NCBI RefSeq assembly: GCF_003664995.1
Contig: NZ_JFHL01000005.1
Location: 124,001-188,000, forward strand
DNA from: Mesotoga sp. BH458_6_3_2_1
Lineage (GTDB): Bacteria > Thermotogota > Thermotogae > Petrotogales > Kosmotogaceae
Reading direction: 5' to 3'
Length of the DNA stretch: 64,000 nucleotides
Part shown: positions 33,337-42,057 of the stretch, one piece after another
Layout of the letters: every line of letters starts with the position of its first letter
Position numbering within the stretch: position 1 is the stretch's first letter
Notes under the pieces: generated by a model
What the model saw: only the letters and a program-made list of their open reading frames with translations
Told to the model about the DNA's origin: nothing
Database searches by the model: none
Program-made: the position numbers and the translations under genes

Positions 33337-34447
33337 GAAGGTCATAGTGGTTGGTGCTGGACCTGCCGGTCTGGCGGCTTCAAGAACGCTTCTTAGAGAG
33401 GGTATTGAGTTCACCCTTTTAGATTCTCGAAGCTTTCCCAGGGAGAAAGGTTGCGGTGGAGGGCTTACACCTCGAGCTCGAAGAACTATCTCACAGATAT
33501 TTCCTGAATTAGAAATAGATGGTTTTGAAAGTTTTGAGCTTGCATTAAGCAAGATTTCAGATGGAGCAGTTAAGCATCTGGTGACACTGGTTTCAAAAAA
33601 GCCGATATTCACGACCGTAAACAGAAGGGAATTCGATAACACTCTGCTGGAATCAGTCATTGAAAGAGGGGGAGAGTTTGTCAGCTCAAGAGTTAGAGAA
33701 GTGAACAGGAGCGGAGATGGTTTCGTGGTTCGAACGGAAGATTTAGAGTACACCGCAGACTATGTGATAATAGCTGCAGGAGTATTCGGAGCGAAACTTT
33801 TGGGGCAGGAACCGCCATGTTACACTATTGCATCCCACGGTAACAGCTCTCCCACAGCGAGTGCTTCGGTCATTTTTATTCAGGACGGATACCTTTGGAG
33901 TTTTCCGGGAGAATCTTACGATTCAGTCGGGGGTGGAACTTACCCGGACTGCAGACTGCTCCCATCTTTCGACGAGATGAGCACAAGGATAAAGAAGTGC
34001 TTTGATGAAGAGCTTATACTTAATGGAACACCTGTTCCACTTTTCAATAGTGATTTAGTCCTCAAACTAAACAATGTTGAGACGGGCCTTCTCTTTACAG
34101 GGGACAGCGCAGGTCTTATCGACAACTGGATAGGTGCGGGGATTGACTTTGCACTTGATTCGGGGAGGCAGGCGGCCCTGTCGATTGCTGAAGACGGTTA
34201 CAAGGGAAAGACCGCAAACGAAAGATACCTGGAAAGGCTCTTCCCTATTGCGAGGCATCTGCAGATCGCAGACGCCTTCAGGAAGAAGTTCAACGCTAAT
34301 CTTGATGAGAAACTAGATCTTCTTAAAGGAAGAACGGCTGGCAAACTGTTGATCAATTATTTGAGCGGTTATGTGAAAGATCCTTACTGGCTCACCTTGA
34401 AGAGTCTCTTCACGAGTGGAGTCAAGAGTCGCTCAACACATAACTGA
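33329..34447 (+). CDS. Geranylgeranyl-reductase-family FAD oxidoreductase
   Basis: 372 residues. The Rossmann motif VIVVGAGPAGLAASRTLL is followed by FPREKGCGGGLTPRA, the conserved Cys-Gly patch of the geranylgeranyl reductase/ChlP branch, and by GLLFTGDSAGLIDNWIGAGIDFALDSGRQAA, the FAD-binding GD block. This group saturates isoprenoid chains or oxidises hydrophobic substrates. It starts inside the MFS gene (overlap 33329-33336) with GAGAGGAA as SD. Its end overlaps the convergent ABC ATPase gene by 15 bases. Confidence 0.82.
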   Translation: MHKKVIVVGAGPAGLAASRTLLREGIEFTLLDSRSFPREKGCGGGLTPRARRTISQIFPELEIDGFESFELALSKISDGAVKHLVTLVSKKPIFTTVNRREFDNTLLESVIERGGEFVSSRVREVNRSGDGFVVRTEDLEYTADYVIIAAGVFGAKLLGQEPPCYTIASHGNSSPTASASVIFIQDGYLWSFPGESYDSVGGGTYPDCRLLPSFDEMSTRIKKCFDEELILNGTPVPLFNSDLVLKLNNVETGLLFTGDSAGLIDNWIGAGIDFALDSGRQAALSIAEDGYKGKTANERYLERLFPIARHLQIADAFRKKFNANLDEKLDLLKGRTAGKLLINYLSGYVKDPYWLTLKSLFTSGVKSRSTHN

Positions 34448-35155
34448 AGTTGCTCTGGACAGTATCTCCCTTATTCCATCGTTTGCAACTTCTCCCTCGA
34501 TCAATCTCATCAACCTTTCTCCGTAAGAATTGGCGATTTCCATGTTGTGAGTTATCATGATTATCGTTATGTCATATTCTATGTTGATTCTGGCCGTCAG
34601 TTCCATAACTCTTAAGGCGCTGTCCGGATCAAGTGCAGCCGTATGTTCGTCAAGAAGCAGCAGTCTGGGCTTCGACAAAATGGCCATTACCATTGCAAGA
34701 GACTGTTTCTGTCCGCCCGAGAGTTCTCCCGCCTTGGTTTTCATTCTGTCTTCCAGTCCAAGGCCGAGATCCTTGAGAAGAGATATCGCCTCCTCTTTGA
34801 CAGAACTGAACCTGAAGGGTCTGTTGCCTTTCTTCGATGCGATTATCAGGTTCTCGGCTATTGTAAGAGCCGGGAATATTCCCGTATTTGGGTCCTGATA
34901 GACTCTTCCAATAAACTCCGCAAGCCTGTGAGGCTTCATACAATTCATGGTCTTGTCGTCGATTATATATAGACCCGAAGTAGGCTGAACCTCGCCAAGA
35001 ATTACTTTCAGAAGCGTTGACTTCCCTGCCCCATTGGGTCCTACTATTGTCAGAAACTGCCCTTCGGGAATTGTCAGACTTACATTCTTCAGAGCGACTC
35101 TTTCATTTTCCATTCCCTGATTGTATACGACCGTCAGATCTTTGAATTCGACCAT
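34433..35155 (-). CDS. ABC transporter ATP-binding protein of TrpXYZ-like system
   Basis: 240 residues, a single ABC ATPase domain: Walker A GPNGAGKST, Q-loop region GRVYQDPN, signature LSGGQKQS, Walker B RLLLLDEHTAALD and the switch His in MITHNME. It powers import with the permease and binding protein encoded just upstream on the same strand. AGGAGGTGA gives a good SD before ATG 35155; the gene overlaps the permease gene by 22 bases. Last gene of the operon. The attenuator ahead of the operon argues for aromatic amino acid uptake. Confidence 0.9.
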   Translation of the reverse strand: MVEFKDLTVVYNQGMENERVALKNVSLTIPEGQFLTIVGPNGAGKSTLLKVILGEVQPTSGLYIIDDKTMNCMKPHRLAEFIGRVYQDPNTGIFPALTIAENLIIASKKGNRPFRFSSVKEEAISLLKDLGLGLEDRMKTKAGELSGGQKQSLAMVMAILSKPRLLLLDEHTAALDPDSALRVMELTARINIEYDITIIMITHNMEIANSYGERLMRLIEGEVANDGIREILSRATSVMC

Positions 35156-36147
35156 AACCTCTTCACCTCCTGTTTCACCTTCCGCTTCCCCCCGCTTGAG
35201 GAAAGCTGACGTAATCCAATTACCGTGATTATGAAGACTGCTGTGAGTAGTTTCATATCGCTTGCAAGAAAGCCTATTCTGTAACCGTATCTCATTGCCA
35301 GAGATAGTAGTGCCTGATAGATAACACCTCCGACTATCGGAGATAGAAGTCCGTAGAACAACTTGACTCTCCCTAGAAGTATCTCGCCCATTATTACCGA
35401 TGCCAGTCCCGTAACAACCATTCCCTGACCGATTGTGGCATCAGAGAAACCGCTGTAGAGAGCAAAAAGACCTCCGCTCAAACCTATTACACAGTTGGCA
35501 ATGGTAAGCCCCGCAATGGCAAGAACATTCTGCGAGATTCCAAAGGAAACCACCCCTGAGGGATTGCTGCCAAAAGCTCTCAGTGTCATTCCCGGATCCG
35601 ACTTTAAAGCAACAGACAGAACTACGATCACAGCAGAAATCACCAGAATTATGAGCATCAAATCCGAGCCATCGAGATCGTTGTTGAAGATATTCTTGGC
35701 GACAACGGTAGTTCTTGACTCTCTCTTCTCAGCATCTATGTCGATCTCTCCAAATAAACTCTCCAAACCTGTGCTTCCGCTCATCTCTTCGAAACTCTGG
35801 GTTGCTCTCTCTGGAACGACTCTAGGAACAGGGAGATTGGGGCCACCCATTACCCTGAGATTTACTGAGTAAAGCATTGTCATGACTAGTATTCCGGCTA
35901 AAAGAACGTTGATCTTGAGTTTTCTGTGGATGGTTCCGGTAATACTCCCCGCAAGCGCCCCGGTCCCTGCCGCTAATGCAATCGCTATCCAGGCAGGTAG
36001 ACCGGAAACAATTGCTCTTACGGCAACCGCTGCACCCAGTGCAAAGGATCCATCCGTTGTGAGATCTGGAAGATCAACTATTCTGAATGATATGTACACT
36101 CCCAGGGCCATGAGGCCAATTATCAATCCCTGTTCCAGAATCGCCAT
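35134..36147 (-). CDS. ABC transporter permease of TrpXYZ-like system
   Basis: 337 residues, nine or ten hydrophobic helices of the BPD_transp_2 (LivH/RbsC-like) class. The conserved opening LGVYISFRIVDLPDLTTDGSFALGAAV and ending SMRYGYRIGFLASDMKLLTAVFIITVIGLRQLS are those of permeases paired with ABC_sub_bind proteins. Between them lies an insert of about 50 residues (GGPNLPVPRVVPERATQSFEEMSG...) presumed periplasmic. It starts four bases after the binding-protein stop, so all three genes are translated from one mRNA. Confidence 0.88.
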   Translation of the reverse strand: MAILEQGLIIGLMALGVYISFRIVDLPDLTTDGSFALGAAVAVRAIVSGLPAWIAIALAAGTGALAGSITGTIHRKLKINVLLAGILVMTMLYSVNLRVMGGPNLPVPRVVPERATQSFEEMSGSTGLESLFGEIDIDAEKRESRTTVVAKNIFNNDLDGSDLMLIILVISAVIVVLSVALKSDPGMTLRAFGSNPSGVVSFGISQNVLAIAGLTIANCVIGLSGGLFALYSGFSDATIGQGMVVTGLASVIMGEILLGRVKLFYGLLSPIVGGVIYQALLSLAMRYGYRIGFLASDMKLLTAVFIITVIGLRQLSSSGGKRKVKQEVKRLWSNSKI

Positions 36148-36151
36148 CTTA

Positions 36152-37123
36152 CTACCTTTCGGTCTCTACACCATCAGTTACTATGAGATTGGCTAGATCC
36201 AGAACTGATTGTGGAATTTCAACACCGATTTCTTCGGCTATGTCTGTGTTTACGAAAAGAATCAGGGAATCCTGCCCAAGTATCTTTGTCTCAAGTTCCG
36301 ATGGAAGAGCGCCCTTGAGAATCTCAACGACAAGTTGCCCGGTAGCTCTACCTATCTGATAGTAGTTGAATCCAAAGCCTATCAGGCCGCCGGATCTCGC
36401 GATGTCGATATCGGCTGCGACGATTGCGATATTCTCTCTCAAAGCTACTTTAGAAATCGATTCTATGCTTGAGGCCGCAGTGTTGTCAGTACCGATGTAG
36501 ATTGCATCGACGTCTTTGATCTGCGCATTGAGTGAGGCGACCATTTCAACTGTCGTGGAGCCTGTGATATCAATTAGCTTCAGCCCAAGAGCGTCACAGG
36601 CCTCTTTAGCAAATTCCCTTATCGTGACCGAATTTGCCTCTCCCGAGTTATAGATGATCCCGACAGTTTCAACGTCGGGAAGAGTCAGTGTCAAAAGCTG
36701 CAGCTGAGTCTTCACAGGTGTCATGTCACTTATTCCAACCACATTTCCAGAATTCTTTCCAAAGGCAGGTACAAGACTTGCACTGACTGGATCCGTAACT
36801 GCACTGAAGACTATTGGAATGGTCTTCGAGGCATTTACCAGCGCTTGTGCAGATGGTGTGGCAATACCCACCATTACTGCAGCGTTTGTCGAAACGAACT
36901 GTTTGGCAATAGTAACCGCGGTTGAAACCGAACCCTGAGCGTTCTGAAAGTCGATTACAATGTTCTCTCCGTGCTTAAAGCCGTTCTCTTCGAGTACGTC
37001 GATTACCCCATCCCTAACCGCATCGAGTGCCGGGTGTTCAACGATTGCCGTAATTCCAACCGTCTGCATAGATAAACCAAGAACTCCAACAAGTAGCACC
37101 AAACATACAAGAACCCGCTTCAT
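36152..37123 (-). CDS. ABC_sub_bind (TrpX-like) substrate-binding protein
   Basis: 323 residues with an N-terminal signal peptide (KRVLVCLVLLVGVLGLSMQ) and no lipobox Cys. The mature part follows the ABC_sub_bind family (DUF534): ITAIVEHPALDAVRDGVIDVL, QNAQGSVSTAVTIAKQFV, VGIATPSAQALVNA, VGIIYNSGEANSV, YIGTDNTAASSI and GFGFNYYQIGRATGQL. Its partners and the leader peptide upstream point to an aromatic amino acid ligand such as tyrosine or tryptophan; this is inference. AGGAGGGATG lies just before ATG 37123, directly after the attenuator's U-run, so only read-through transcripts can be translated. Confidence 0.9.
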   Translation of the reverse strand: MKRVLVCLVLLVGVLGLSMQTVGITAIVEHPALDAVRDGVIDVLEENGFKHGENIVIDFQNAQGSVSTAVTIAKQFVSTNAAVMVGIATPSAQALVNASKTIPIVFSAVTDPVSASLVPAFGKNSGNVVGISDMTPVKTQLQLLTLTLPDVETVGIIYNSGEANSVTIREFAKEACDALGLKLIDITGSTTVEMVASLNAQIKDVDAIYIGTDNTAASSIESISKVALRENIAIVAADIDIARSGGLIGFGFNYYQIGRATGQLVVEILKGALPSELETKILGQDSLILFVNTDIAEEIGVEIPQSVLDLANLIVTDGVETER

Positions 37124-37142: not shown

Positions 37143-37179
37143 AAAAAAAGAGAGGACGTTTCTCACGTCCTCTCTCTTT
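37143..37179 (-). terminator. Attenuator terminator before the TrpXYZ-like operon
   Basis: On the minus strand, the 11-bp stem AGAGAGGACGT / ACGTCCTCTCT (37175-37165 with 37159-37149) closes a GAGAA loop and runs straight into seven T (37149-37143). Flanking A and T residues can extend the stem. It ends about 20 bases before the first start codon of the operon, so it is a leader terminator, not the end of a gene. See the antiterminator entry for the competing fold. Confidence 0.93.
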
Positions 37180-37243
37180 ATACTCTCTAGTGTATTTTAA
37201 CTCAAGCACACACTGGAGGAGTCCGAAGAAAGGACGTTCCTCC
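37165..37243 (-). promoter_or_regulatory. Attenuator hairpin 1 and antiterminator pairing
   Basis: Segment 1, GGAGGA (37243-37238), pairs with TCCTCC (37220-37215); inside it GTCC (37235-37232) pairs with GGAC (37224-37221), so the sequence ACGTCCTTTCT (37237-37227) is hidden. If freed, that same sequence can pair over 11 bases (one G-U) with AGAGAGGACGT (37175-37165), the 5' arm of the terminator. Segment 2 thus mimics the terminator's own 3' arm except for one base: the classic 1:2, 2:3, 3:4 attenuation layout. Confidence 0.85.
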
Positions 37244-37289
37244 TAAACCAATAAGCGTATACGTAGCTTACAAATGCCGCTCGAGTCAT
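37197..37289 (-). CDS. Aromatic-rich leader peptide (30 aa) of the TrpXYZ-like operon
   Basis: A 30-codon ORF from ATG 37289 to TAA 37199-37197, with the SD GGAGG (37302-37298) eight bases upstream. It reads MTRAAFVSYVYAYWFRRN and continues to CLS. Between residues 6 and 15 it has Phe, Tyr, Tyr, Tyr, Trp and Phe, six aromatic codons in ten. The run TAC-GCT-TAT-TGG-TTT ends one base before hairpin 1. A ribosome waiting at a Tyr or Trp codon would cover GGAGGA and free segment 2 for the antiterminator. Too short to be listed by usual gene finders. Product has no expected function besides being translated. Confidence 0.85.
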   Translation of the reverse strand: MTRAAFVSYVYAYWFRRNVLSSDSSSVCLS

Positions 37290-37320
37290 CGCATTAACCT
37301 CCGAATATCTTGATGAGAAG

Positions 37321-37350
37321 TTTATACCACAAATGAATGTTACGGATCAA
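37321..37350 (-). promoter_or_regulatory. Promoter of the attenuated TrpXYZ-like operon
   Basis: On the minus strand TTGATC (37350-37345), an 18-base spacer and TATAAA (37326-37321). Transcription would begin near 37314, giving a leader of roughly 190 bases that includes the leader peptide and the attenuator. Confidence 0.65.
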
Positions 37351-37376: not shown

Positions 37377-38315
37377 TTAGGTTCTCTCTTCTCTTGAATA
37401 CGGTACTCCCAGTGACGCCGGAGCTCCCACCTTTCTCTTCAGTGTCTCTGTAGAGGTGAAGAATAGAACGACGATCGTGAGAAGATATGGAAGCATCTTC
37501 AGAAAGTCGGGCGAAATATGCGCCCCGACTGCCTGCAATCTCAATCCGAGAGCAGTGATTCCTCCGAATAGATAAGCTCCGATCAATGCCTTAGCGGGAT
37601 CCCATGTGGCGAACAGCACGAGAGCTATGGCAATCCATCCTCTTCCTGCAGTCATGTTCTCGATCCACATGGAGTTGTAAGCTAGCGAAAGATAAGCTCC
37701 CCCGATGGCCGTGATGGAACCTCCCAGTATCGTGTAGAAGTATCTCACCGCAAATACGTTTATTCCTTTGGCATCTGCAGCATCTGGAGATTCGCCCACT
37801 GCGCGAAGCGTAAGCCCCGGTCGAGTCTTGTATATGAACAACCACATGAGTGGAACCATAATGAAGCTTATATAGACCAGGAGATCATGGTTGAATAGGA
37901 TCTGACCAATATATGGAACCTCGGAAAGAACGGGGATCTTTATCGGTTCAAAACGCCTGGCGATTACACCGATATAGTCCTTTCCCCAGAGTCCGCTGAG
38001 GCCAGTGCCGAGCATCGTTATAGCAAGTCCGCTCACGATCTGATTTACTCTCAGAGTCACTGTGAAAAAGGCGTGGACCAGACCGAGAATAGCCCCTGCA
38101 AGCATCGCAACCAGAATTGCCGCTAGTAGACTTGACGTCTGGTAAGAAGCTACAAAGCCTCCAATCGCCCCAATAAGCATAAATCCTTCAAGGCCGAGAT
38201 TCATGACGCCCGACCTTTCAGTAAATATCGTGCCGAGGACCGCAAAAAGCAGCGGAGTTCCCGCCCTAACGGTAGCGCTGAGTGTCGAGAGAATGAAAGA
38301 CTCGATATTATTCAT
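37377..38315 (-). CDS. Nucleoside ABC transporter permease (second subunit)
   Basis: 312 residues, about eight to ten helices, of the BPD_transp_2 class. Segments GTPLLFAVLGTIFTERSGVMNLGLEGFMLIGA, LTLRAVGESPDAADAKGI and the glycine-rich GGAYLSLAYNSMW belong to the NupQ/YufQ/RnsC-like permeases of BMP-type nucleoside importers. It pairs with the permease encoded just before it, overlapping by eight bases. GAGGAGG lies nine bases before ATG 38315. Last gene of the four-gene operon; I see no terminator before the following attenuator promoter. Confidence 0.9.
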   Translation of the reverse strand: MNNIESFILSTLSATVRAGTPLLFAVLGTIFTERSGVMNLGLEGFMLIGAIGGFVASYQTSSLLAAILVAMLAGAILGLVHAFFTVTLRVNQIVSGLAITMLGTGLSGLWGKDYIGVIARRFEPIKIPVLSEVPYIGQILFNHDLLVYISFIMVPLMWLFIYKTRPGLTLRAVGESPDAADAKGINVFAVRYFYTILGGSITAIGGAYLSLAYNSMWIENMTAGRGWIAIALVLFATWDPAKALIGAYLFGGITALGLRLQAVGAHISPDFLKMLPYLLTIVVLFFTSTETLKRKVGAPASLGVPYSREERT

Positions 38316-39423
38316 TCGTAACTGCCTCCTCTCTCGATACCCTAAATCTGTATTTGGAAATTGCCTCTCCTCCGAGAAGGCTGAAAAGTACCAATCCCTG
38401 GAACACAGATATTAGAGCCATCGGCAGCTTATAGAACATCTGAAGCTGATCATTCCCTACGAGCAGCCCGCCGAAGAGAAATGCGACAAGGAGAATTGCA
38501 ATTGGGTTCAGCTTGGCCAGCCAGGCTACGATGATTGCAGTGTAACCATATCCGGGAGAGAATCCGTGCTGCAATCTGTGCTGAATTCCCATCATCTGTA
38601 CGGCTCCTCCCAGCCCCGCTATTGCTCCGCTGACAACGAGCGCAATGATCGTGTACTTTATTATGCTGATCCCCGAGTATCTGGCAGCCTGAGCGTTGTC
38701 TCCGACGATTTTCGAATTCATCCCCCATCTAGTCCGCTTATAGACGTAGTAAAGGACTATCGCAAGGGCAACCGCAATAAAGAAGCCAACGTGGAACTCG
38801 CCTTTGAAAAGAGTCGGTAACCTTGCTTGATCAGGGAAGGGAGCCGTCCCGGGGAAGCCATATCCCTTGGGGTCTTTCCACGGTCCGTAGACAAGATAAT
38901 CCACCCAGAATATTGCGACATAGTTGAGCATGAGAGTTACCACTATCTCGTCGGTCTTTGCAAAAGCCTTCATCAATGCGGGTATTAAGGCCCAGATTCC
39001 GCCCGCTGCCGCTCCGAGGACTGAAATAAGGAGAATCATCAATACCGGTGAAGTGACATCTTTGAACAAATAAAGAGCTCCCCAAGTAGCGGCCAATGCT
39101 CCCATATAGAGCTGGCCTTCACCTCCGATGTTCCATATCTTCATTCTATAAGCAAATGACAGACCCAATCCTACAAAAGCGAGTGGGACCATTCTCATTA
39201 GCGTGCTGAAGATTCCATACTTGTTGGCAAATGGCCATGTAAGCATTTCTTTGTATGCTTCAAACATTTCGCGGAAAGCAAGCGAGAAATTCCCCAGCCG
39301 TCCATAGAAAAACACCAGCAAGATTATACCCATAATAACCAGAGCAATAGCTACCGAAAGGATGGGAACAAGGACCGAGGAGTATTTAGGAACTGTCAGT
39401 CTCTTCTCGATTCGTATTTTCAC
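38308..39423 (-). CDS. Nucleoside ABC transporter permease (first subunit)
   Basis: 371 residues, ten or so helices. LGLSFAYRMKIWNIGGEGQLYMGALAATWGALYL is the conserved NupP/YufP-type start of the permease core, and AQAARYSGISIIKYTIIALVVSGAIAGLGGAVQMMG the coupling-helix region contacting the ATPase. The start is GTG 39423, which overlaps the ATPase stop in GTGA, so translation is coupled. With the ATPase and BMP protein this makes a complete nucleoside importer. Confidence 0.9.
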   Translation of the reverse strand: MKIRIEKRLTVPKYSSVLVPILSVAIALVIMGIILLVFFYGRLGNFSLAFREMFEAYKEMLTWPFANKYGIFSTLMRMVPLAFVGLGLSFAYRMKIWNIGGEGQLYMGALAATWGALYLFKDVTSPVLMILLISVLGAAAGGIWALIPALMKAFAKTDEIVVTLMLNYVAIFWVDYLVYGPWKDPKGYGFPGTAPFPDQARLPTLFKGEFHVGFFIAVALAIVLYYVYKRTRWGMNSKIVGDNAQAARYSGISIIKYTIIALVVSGAIAGLGGAVQMMGIQHRLQHGFSPGYGYTAIIVAWLAKLNPIAILLVAFLFGGLLVGNDQLQMFYKLPMALISVFQGLVLFSLLGGEAISKYRFRVSREEAVTNE

Positions 39424-40946
39424 GCTATCTCCCCCTGCTTTGAGCCGGCCATCATGAAACCGATCTCCTCGGTGAATTTCGGATCGGGAGGCGTGTATCC
39501 CATTATTTCTCCCTCATAGATTACTGCAACCCTGTCTGAAAGCCTGAAAATCTCGTACAGTTCGCCGGCCAGGAGCAGAATGGCCGCTCCGCGCTCTTTG
39601 TGAGCAAGAAGAGTTCTGTAAACAAACTCCATGGCTCCTATGTCAAGGCCTCTTGTGGGGTGCTCCGCAACGATGAGGCAGGGTTTAGTGGACAGTTCCC
39701 TTGCAAGGACTAGTTTCTGCAGGTTTCCGCCTGAAAGAAATCTTGAGGGTGTCCTCGTCGAAGGAGTCGATATCGAATAACTGCTGATCAATTCTTCTGT
39801 AGCCTTATGCATTGCGCGTATATTGACGTTGAAGGGTGACTGAGGAATGTAGTTGGAGTAAGCGTTCTTCATGAACATATTTTCCGTTATTGACAACGAA
39901 GGACAAGTTGCAAGCGCTCTTCTGTCCTGAGGAATAAATGCCACACCTTCTTCAATTCGCTGAGCGATATCGGTAGAATTGAGTTCCTTGTCGTTCAAGA
40001 AAACGGTTCCGTGGGTTGGTTTTCTCAGACCGTATATTGCTTCAGCCAGCTCTCTCTGCCCATTTCCGGCAACCCCCGCGATTCCCAGTATTTCGCCCGA
40101 TCGAATGCTCAAGCTAAGCTCTCTTACAGCTTCCAGATTCTTATCGTTCTTGACCGTCAACTTTTCGACCTCGAGAACTGTCTTCCCGGGTTCGGTCTTA
40201 GGCTTGTCGAAATCAAGAAGTACATCTCTGCCTACCATCATTCTTACCAGGGATCTTCTATCAATTGAACTTCTCTCTTCAGTTCCAACAAACCTGCCGC
40301 CTCTCAATACCGTCACCCTGTCGCTAATCTGAAGCACCTCGTCCAGTTTGTGACTTATGAAGATGACTGAAGAGCCTTCACTCACAAGCTTTCTTATTGC
40401 TTTGAACAAGACTTCTGTCTCTTGAGGAGTAAGTACGGCCGTTGGCTCGTCAAGAATGATGACTTTTGCGCCGGTATAAAGCAGCTTTAGAATCTCGATT
40501 CGCTGCTTCTCCCCGACAGAAAGAGTCCAGACTCTAGCCCTGGGGTTCACTGGAAGGTCGTAGCTTTCTCCGAGTTTCTTTATAATTGATTCCACAGTCT
40601 TGGTTTTAACGAAGAAACCCATCTCTTTCAGACCGAGCACAACATTTTCAGCCACAGTGAACGAAGGCACGACTGTGAAATGCTGCTGGACCATTCCGAT
40701 TCCATACTTCAGCGCGTTGTGAGGAGAAGAAATGGAGATTCGCTGACCTTCCATGAGAATCTCTCCCTTGTCCGGTTTATATATGCCGAAGAGAATATTC
40801 ATGAGAGTCGTCTTACCTGCCCCATTTTCTCCCAGCAGAGCATGGACTTCACCTTTACGAAGATCGAGCGAAATATTATCGTTTGCTAAAATACCAGGAA
40901 AGGCCTTTGTGATGTTTCTCATTTCAAGAACTGGAAGCTCAGCCAA
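39420..40946 (-). CDS. Nucleoside ABC transporter, double ATP-binding protein
   Basis: 508 residues with two ABC domains. Domain 1 has Walker A GENGAGKTT, Q-loop VQQHFTV, signature LSVGEKQR and Walker B VIILDEPTAVLT. Domain 2 has the degenerate Walker A GVAGNGQRE, signature LSGGNLQK and IVAEHPTRGLD. This pattern is that of NupO/YufO, ATPases serving BMP-type nucleoside uptake. It follows the BMP gene after a 52-base spacer containing a strong hairpin. Confidence 0.93.
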   Translation of the reverse strand: MAELPVLEMRNITKAFPGILANDNISLDLRKGEVHALLGENGAGKTTLMNILFGIYKPDKGEILMEGQRISISSPHNALKYGIGMVQQHFTVVPSFTVAENVVLGLKEMGFFVKTKTVESIIKKLGESYDLPVNPRARVWTLSVGEKQRIEILKLLYTGAKVIILDEPTAVLTPQETEVLFKAIRKLVSEGSSVIFISHKLDEVLQISDRVTVLRGGRFVGTEERSSIDRRSLVRMMVGRDVLLDFDKPKTEPGKTVLEVEKLTVKNDKNLEAVRELSLSIRSGEILGIAGVAGNGQRELAEAIYGLRKPTHGTVFLNDKELNSTDIAQRIEEGVAFIPQDRRALATCPSLSITENMFMKNAYSNYIPQSPFNVNIRAMHKATEELISSYSISTPSTRTPSRFLSGGNLQKLVLARELSTKPCLIVAEHPTRGLDIGAMEFVYRTLLAHKERGAAILLLAGELYEIFRLSDRVAVIYEGEIMGYTPPDPKFTEEIGFMMAGSKQGEIA

Positions 40947-40971
40947 GAAAAATCACTCCAAAGAAAGAAAT

Positions 40972-40993
40972 TGAGGGGCCGGGCGGCCCCTCA
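40972..40993 (-). terminator. Stem-loop between BMP protein and ABC ATPase genes
   Basis: A 9-bp stem TGAGGGGCC / GGCCCCTCA with a 4-base loop lies just after the BMP stop. On the minus strand it is followed by ATTTCTTTCTTT, not a clean U-run, so it is probably a partial terminator or an mRNA-stabilising barrier that leaves the binding protein in excess over the membrane parts. Confidence 0.7.
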
Positions 40994-40998
40994 CAATT

Positions 40999-42057
40999 TT
41001 ACTGGATCTTTCCCACTACGTTGCTTACAAACCAATCCATGCTGAGAAGCTCTGCATCGGTAGGCTTCTCGCCTTTTCCGTATCTAAGTGCACCCGTCTG
41101 GTCGTAAACTGGCCCGTCGAAGGGATGCATAAGCCCCTGGATGATTGCCTCTCTCATCGACATCACAAGCTTTGCGATACCTTCGGGGACGAGGTCACCG
41201 ATGAAGATGTCTACAACGCCTTCCTTGATGCCTCCCCAGTATTGTTCGTTGGTCCAGGTATCCTCAATCACGTTTCTAACTACGTACTCGTAGAAAGGAC
41301 CCCAATCCCATACAGGAGCTGCGAGGAATGCGTTTGGAGCGAAGGCACTCATGTCGCTGTTGTATCCTATTGAAAGCGCGCCTCTGTCTTCTGCCGCTTG
41401 CTGTGGAGAGGGTGAATCCTGATGCTGTGTGATAACATCTGCGCCCACATCAAGAAGAGATTCTGCGGCTTCCTTTTCTCTCGCAGGATCGAACCAGGTG
41501 TTGGACCAAACAACATGAACCTTTGCATCGGGATTGACGTACTGCACACCCATCGCGAATGCGTTGATTCCGCGGATAACCTCGGGTATTGGATATGCGG
41601 CAACGTAACCGATAATATTGCTCTCAGTCATCGCTCCGGCGATGAGTCCACTGAGAAATCTTGGCTCGTACATTCTGCCGAAATAAGTCCCCAAATTGTC
41701 GGTAGTCATGTAACCGGAACAGTGCATGAAGGTTGAATCCGGGAAAGCCTGCGCAACCTTGACCATGCTGTCCATATAACCGAAGCTTGTTCCGAAGACA
41801 AGGTCATAACCTCTCTGAGCGTATCCTCTGAAAACAACTTCCGCTTCTGCCCCTTCAGGAACGCTCTCAATGAAATCAGTTACAACCTGGTCCCCAAAGA
41901 CTTCCTCGACGTGAAGCCTGCCGGCATTGTGCATGGTGCTCCAGCCACCGTCGCCGACCGGTGCTACGTAGATAAAAGCTACTTTCAGTGGTGCCGCCAT
42001 CAGCGCCGCTGCAATCAGCAGTACCGAGAAGAACAAGAAAATCTTCCTCACTGTCAT
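40999..42057 (-). CDS. BMP-family nucleoside-binding protein
   Basis: 352 residues. A signal peptide (RKIFLFFSVLLIAAALMAA) precedes the BMP/Med fold: LKVAFIYVAPVGDGGWSTMHNAGR, GFGYMDSM-type GTSFGYMDSMVKVA, YFGRMYEPRFLSGLIAGAM, GYVAAYPIPEVIRGINAFAMG, DVITQHQDSPSPQQAAEDRG and VWDWGPFYEYVV. These are signatures of purine nucleoside-binding relatives (PnrA). No lipobox Cys is seen, so it is probably a free periplasmic or externally tethered protein rather than a lipoprotein. First gene of the operon. Confidence 0.92.
   Translation of the reverse strand: MTVRKIFLFFSVLLIAAALMAAPLKVAFIYVAPVGDGGWSTMHNAGRLHVEEVFGDQVVTDFIESVPEGAEAEVVFRGYAQRGYDLVFGTSFGYMDSMVKVAQAFPDSTFMHCSGYMTTDNLGTYFGRMYEPRFLSGLIAGAMTESNIIGYVAAYPIPEVIRGINAFAMGVQYVNPDAKVHVVWSNTWFDPAREKEAAESLLDVGADVITQHQDSPSPQQAAEDRGALSIGYNSDMSAFAPNAFLAAPVWDWGPFYEYVVRNVIEDTWTNEQYWGGIKEGVVDIFIGDLVPEGIAKLVMSMREAIIQGLMHPFDGPVYDQTGALRYGKGEKPTDAELLSMDWFVSNVVGKIQ

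Follow-up and report, generated by a model that had tools for sequence, protein, structure and literature searches.

We analysed a 64,000-nucleotide stretch of the genome of Mesotoga sp. BH458_6_3_2_1, referred to here as the window. Its minus strand carries an ABC importer operon for a solute-binding protein, a permease and an ATPase. The DNA from 37350 to 37121 (minus strand) contains, in this order, a promoter, a Shine-Dalgarno (SD) sequence, a 30-codon ORF, a hairpin (hairpin 1), a terminator, a second SD and the start codon of the binding-protein gene. The features of the leader and of the operon are listed below; where no other basis is given, they were read from the sequence.

37350-37345 (-): -35 box TTGATC; a promoter lies at a similar distance in relatives
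37326-37321 (-): -10 box TATAAA, 18-nt spacer to the -35 box, with TGG just before it (extended -10)
37302-37297 (-): leader SD, GGAGGT
37289-37197 (-): leader ORF, 30 codons plus stop, MTRAAFVSYVYAYWFRRNVLSSDSSSVCLS; conserved in Mesotoga relatives
37257..37274 (-): outer aromatic codons Phe6, Tyr9 and Tyr11
37245..37253 (-): control codons Tyr13-Trp14-Phe15, ending 13, 10 and 7 nt before segment 2
37243-37215 (-): hairpin 1, GGAGGA...GTCC/GGAC...TCCTCC, which sequesters segment 2; about -15 kcal/mol by folding
37237-37227 (-): segment 2, 5′ strand of the antiterminator, ACGTCCTTTCT; by complementarity
37175-37165 (-): segment 3, 5′ arm of the terminator, AGAGAGGACGT; its partner is segment 2 or the terminator 3′ arm
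37175-37149 (-): intrinsic terminator AGAGAGGACGT-GAGAA-ACGTCCTCTCT, 11-bp stem with GAGAA loop; seven T at 37149-37143
37137-37132 (-): SD of the binding-protein gene, AGGAGG; ATG at 37123
36152..37123 (-): TrpX-like solute-binding protein, PF04392 (E 4e-80, 269.5 bits against a Pfam gathering cut-off of 25.9)
35134..36147 (-): permease, BPD_transp_2 (PF02653), by Pfam
34433..35155 (-): ABC ATPase (PF00005), by Pfam

The aromatic residues of the leader peptide are F6, Y9, Y11, Y13, W14 and F15. An earlier note on this DNA had described the promoter, the SD and a 30-codon ORF with F/Y/Y/Y/W/F within residues 6-15, and this description was correct to the base, with all elements on the minus strand. 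Hairpin 1, which the note had placed right after the aromatic codons, starts 1 nt 3′ of the Phe15 codon. The coordinates of the 11-bp alternative pairing and of the 11-bp terminator with seven T next to the SD were also right; the alternative pairing is formed by ACGTCCTTTCT and AGAGAGGACGT and includes one G-U pair. The folding z-score of the leader was -5.4, and none of 200 shuffled sequences folded equally well. Likewise, 300 shuffled versions of segment 2 all paired less well than the original. A scan of both strands of the window gave 31 terminator-like hairpins, and only the leader terminator had the complete architecture: sequence upstream of it can pair with its 5′ arm, and a short ORF with an SD lies in the right register. 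A simple promoter scan had skipped the leader promoter because its -10 box ends in A and not in T. A Bmp/PnrA-like ABC operon (37377-42057, minus strand) lies upstream, and 27 nt separate its end from the -35 box of the leader. No terminator of this upstream operon was detected, and any read-through from there would meet the attenuator.

The binding protein had been called TrpX-like in the earlier note. The assignment to PF04392 and the relatives with bound Phe, Tyr or Trp uphold this name, but the score against the NCBIfam TrpX equivalog NF041285 was 266 bits, below the cut-off of 390, and we therefore speak of a TrpX-like protein and not of TrpX. The nearest solved structures were 3LKV, 6HNI and 3LFT, which carry bound Phe, Tyr and Trp (PMC6816091). 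The homologues CD0873 of Clostridioides difficile, VC_1101 of Vibrio cholerae and SP1069 of Streptococcus pneumoniae bind Tyr, Phe and Trp, respectively, and two pocket positions set the specificity in this family; in CD0873, Glu263 anchors the hydroxyl of the bound Tyr, and Tyr279 keeps Trp out (PMC6816091). At the position of Glu263, the window protein differs from these homologues by an Asp in place of Glu or Ala, and Tyr occupies the position of Tyr279. The pocket thus hints at Tyr without fixing one ligand. The genome itself (99.98% complete) encodes chorismate synthase and prephenate dehydratase, but neither a chorismate_bind (TrpE-type) gene nor a HisG gene was found in it. Therefore, Trp import is probably needed, and the organism is likely auxotrophic for Trp and His.

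The window binding protein matched proteins in 46 of 103 Thermotogota genomes, with 7 of the 46 being weak hits to other binding proteins. The upstream DNA was inspected for 47 Thermotogota binding-protein genes (loci L052 and L056b were read by eye), and a leader ORF with aromatic codons followed by a terminator was found at all 47. As the earlier note had proposed checking by alignment of homologues, the leader ORF, the aromatic codons, the three mutually exclusive stems and the promoter recur in all Thermotogota families that have this binding protein. Within Mesotoga, positions 6 and 9 exchange Phe and Tyr, position 6 is also Leu, and the Y11-A-Y13-W14-F15 stretch is invariant. The corresponding clusters are AYAYWWF in family f8, YFYFWYW and YYYWY in f2, YFYFYW in G005 (f6) and VYYF in G033. 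The leader SD is conserved across relatives. In nearly all lineages, a promoter precedes the leader start at a distance of 26-58 nt, in most cases about 31 nt; two Tyr-only paralogs, L035 and L036, have weak promoter matches.

The sequence of segment 2 differs between lineages: it is ACGTCCTTTCT in Mesotoga, GCCCTCTTC in several families, AGACACCCA and GGCATCCAC in two f2 groups and ACACTCG in G045. Despite this divergence, segment 2 stays complementary to the terminator 5′ arm of its own lineage, which bears out the compensatory changes that had been suggested for the stems. The duplexes between segment 2 and the terminator arm averaged -18.2 kcal/mol within a lineage and -11.8 kcal/mol across lineages, with a strong block structure. 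The antiterminator was weak in one paralog, L054a (shuffle P 0.12). In each lineage, segment 2 is alternatively held in hairpin 1, whose 5′ arm begins at the last control codons or within a few nucleotides of them.

The position of the aromatic codons was evaluated in 32 representative leaders as the distance from codon end to segment 2 start. Aromatic codons made up 102 of the 112 codons (91%) ending 6-15 nt before segment 2, 20 of 309 (6%) at 31-60 nt upstream and 3 of 127 (2%) after the segment 2 start; the leaders are phylogenetically related, so that the very small P values of these counts are not literal. The aromatic share fell from 98% at 6-9 nt to 91% at 10-12 nt and 81% at 13-15 nt, and further to 52% at 16-21 nt and 24% at 22-30 nt. 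When the leader was folded with a ribosome edge imposed, stalling at codons 6-15 nt before segment 2 weakened hairpin 1 and still allowed the antiterminator to form. Nearer codons blocked segment 2, and more distant ones left hairpin 1 intact. The edge was assumed to lie 10 nt past the A site, and a 2-nt shift keeps the cluster inside the effective interval. This match of codon position with the predicted mechanism is the strongest evidence for attenuation. Tyr13 (37253-37251), which had been named as the best stall site, lies within the effective register, but it is not the only candidate, as Trp14 and Phe15 are also plausible.

We conclude that the window leader is most probably, with a probability of about 0.93, a transcription attenuator of the ribosome-mediated (leader-peptide) type that senses charged aromatic tRNA and controls an aromatic amino acid importer; the comparative tests proposed in the earlier note support its suggestion of ribosome-stalling attenuation at this operon. 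The leader contains what is expected of such a device, namely an SD-led short transcribed ORF between promoter and first gene, an intrinsic terminator ahead of the first structural gene, control codons that fit the operon function and are in register with the RNA switch, and a mutually exclusive antiterminator kept by covariation. In the course of events that we infer, a ribosome supplied with ample aromatic amino acids would pass Tyr13-Trp14-Phe15 and melt hairpin 1, which would form again behind the ribosome once this has reached or passed the stop codon. With segment 2 hidden, the terminator would form and the operon would be off. Under a shortage of charged tRNA for Tyr, Trp or Phe, the ribosome would stall with one of the control codons in the A site, and its leading edge would cover the 5′ arm of hairpin 1. 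The segment 2 thus freed (ACGTCCTTTCT) would capture the 5′ arm of the terminator during its synthesis by RNA polymerase, and transcription would run into the binding-protein, permease and ATPase genes. In equilibrium folding, the antiterminator prevailed although hairpin 1 was free to form (P 0.96). Repression therefore requires that hairpin 1 forms before the antiterminator, a kinetic requirement as in other attenuators.

Several lineages contain more than one copy of the importer. In G006 and G007, two species of one f6 genus, three binding-protein genes lie in tandem about 3 kb apart (loci L057 and L035 on G006:C24; L056 and L036 on G007:C98). Their leaders are Phe-only (FVFAF, FAFAF), Trp-containing (YYFWY, YGFWY) and Tyr-only or nearly so (FVYAYY, YAYY). 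G018 has one mixed leader and one WWW leader, and G045 has WWW, mixed and Phe-only leaders. According to the binding-protein tree, these duplications were independent. Binding proteins whose leader contains Tyr all have Asp or Glu at the position that contacts the Tyr hydroxyl. Of the four lineages with Tyr-less leaders, two have Phe there and the other two, L052 (WWW) and L054a (Phe-only), keep Asp. The pocket acid was thus lost in 2/4 Tyr-less lineages and in 0/17 others (Fisher P 0.03, with lineages counted by hand), a suggestive link between Tyr-less leaders and loss of this acid. Tandem leaders that differ in Phe, Tyr and Trp would offer a natural experiment on the joint divergence of regulation and transport specificity. 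At L054 (G045:C5), neighbouring leaders begin alike (MIKDNNKNLINIFSF) and then split into FYFYYW and FF; this pair reads as a visible duplication of the leader.

Conservation of the leader peptide within families (FAYAYWWFRGxPSS, YAYWFRR) might also be expected from nascent-peptide arrest of the TnaC type, in which binding of free Trp or another ligand makes a particular peptide halt its ribosome. However, the codons 3′ of the aromatic cluster also form hairpin 1, and this accounts for the conserved residues there, and the aromatic residues change freely in kind and order (YWF, WWF, WYW, YYF, WWW, FAF, YAYY) with the register to segment 2 kept. The leaders have no fixed arrest sequence ending in Pro-stop, no conserved Pro-stop and no fixed length, and an importer induced by excess of its ligand would be odd, so that such arrest is very improbable. 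A T-box or another direct RNA sensor comes to mind because the homologous trpXYZ of Streptococcus suis is under a Trp T-box (PMC9382623) and T-boxes likewise work through a terminator. What is conserved here, in contrast, is an ORF that is translated and whose codons keep their register. The window leader matched no Rfam family at E values up to 1, neither the T-box model nor the amino-acid leader models (Trp_leader, His_leader and others), and the sole hit, located elsewhere, was an unrelated sub-threshold miRNA; T-box, leader or riboswitch families were also absent from 18 related or control loci. Direct RNA sensing is therefore barely conceivable at this operon.

The closeness of the upstream Bmp operon, with no terminator of its own detected, would agree with a constitutive terminator of that operon next to an unrelated small protein gene, and with no regulation. 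It is hard to reconcile such an arrangement with the leader's own promoter, the exact antiterminator, the codon register and the phylum-wide covariation, and we give it hardly any credence. Attenuation could, on the other hand, be real and sense just one amino acid, Trp by codon position, with the other aromatic codons incidental. Trp codons are frequent where the register is optimal, with 19 of 48 codons at 6-9 nt and 13 of 32 at 10-12 nt, and Trp auxotrophy appears likely from the genome. However, Tyr and Phe sit in the same register, there are paralogs with Phe-only and Tyr-only leaders, and the pocket of the window protein carries Asp at the place that contacts the Tyr hydroxyl; sensing of Trp alone is thus unlikely.

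In the Escherichia coli pheA and trp operons, a short translated leader with runs of pathway codons, hairpin 1, a competing antiterminator and an intrinsic terminator precede the first gene. The window leader has the same layout of leader ORF, hairpin 1, antiterminator and terminator, and the underlying mechanism is classical ribosome-mediated attenuation, which is already known. In contrast to the E. coli leaders, it encodes all three aromatic amino acids together and its target is an ABC importer. Moreover, the control codons are followed directly by segment 2, still within the ORF, and the stop codon is mostly beyond hairpin 1, whereas in E. coli it lies between segments 1 and 2. The trpXYZ operons of S. 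suis and S. pneumoniae, which have a homologous binding protein and also antiterminate on shortage of charged tRNA, are under T-box control, and the authors asked whether this is common to orthologues (PMC9382623). The streptococcal T-box reads the tRNA directly, whereas the Thermotogota leader would use a translating ribosome. In Thermotogota, as judged from the leaders, it is not.

Leader-peptide attenuators were known only from Proteobacteria and Actinobacteria according to a 2010 survey, which added hisS and hisZ in Firmicutes (PMC2965389). These Firmicutes leaders are likewise attenuators outside the two former phyla and replace T-boxes, but they concern another gene, amino acid and phylum. 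The earlier note knew of no described case for a Thermotogota transporter, and our search of openly accessible papers found no published report of such attenuation in Thermotogota. In the literature searched, there seems to be no description of such attenuation in this phylum or with a transporter as target, of a sensor for three amino acids, or of codons divided among paralogs. A survey of attenuation in bacteria by Lopatovskaya et al. (2010, Mol. Biol. 44:128) may already list Thermotogae. Leader-peptide attenuation would be a conserved feature of a phylum that branches deeply and is largely thermophilic, and it would act on a transporter family that is T-box-controlled in streptococci. In Bacillota, Tyr-rich leaders (MGRQNSFFTSSYYSYYYYPRKRE) with a terminator and without a T-box match were seen at L012:650-730 and upstream of L013; these loci were considered as further cases but excluded, as they had no clear antiterminator.

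A wider reading, which we put forward tentatively at somewhat less than even odds, is that Thermotogota generally control amino acid importers by leader-peptide attenuation. The leader codons would then be a record of each importer's ligand, duplicated operons would have split the aromatic codons (Phe-only, Tyr-only, Trp-containing) along with pocket changes, and a Met-codon version would act on metQ. Leader codons would also yield testable ligand predictions for binding proteins that sequence annotation leaves unresolved. Comparison of the leader DNA with its own genome revealed a second site with an identical terminator tail and SD. This site (L002, G000:C29, around 119145-119300, minus strand) is a Met-codon leader, MTEETFREKNRIAMMMYGNALVSSGA, ahead of a MetQ-type gene, with the same geometry and terminator tail. 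Leaders with MMM or MMMM, absent from other f2 genomes, were present in Mesotoga, G018, G037, G038, G039 and G042, with the last Met codon 4-10 nt before the terminator-complementary segment.
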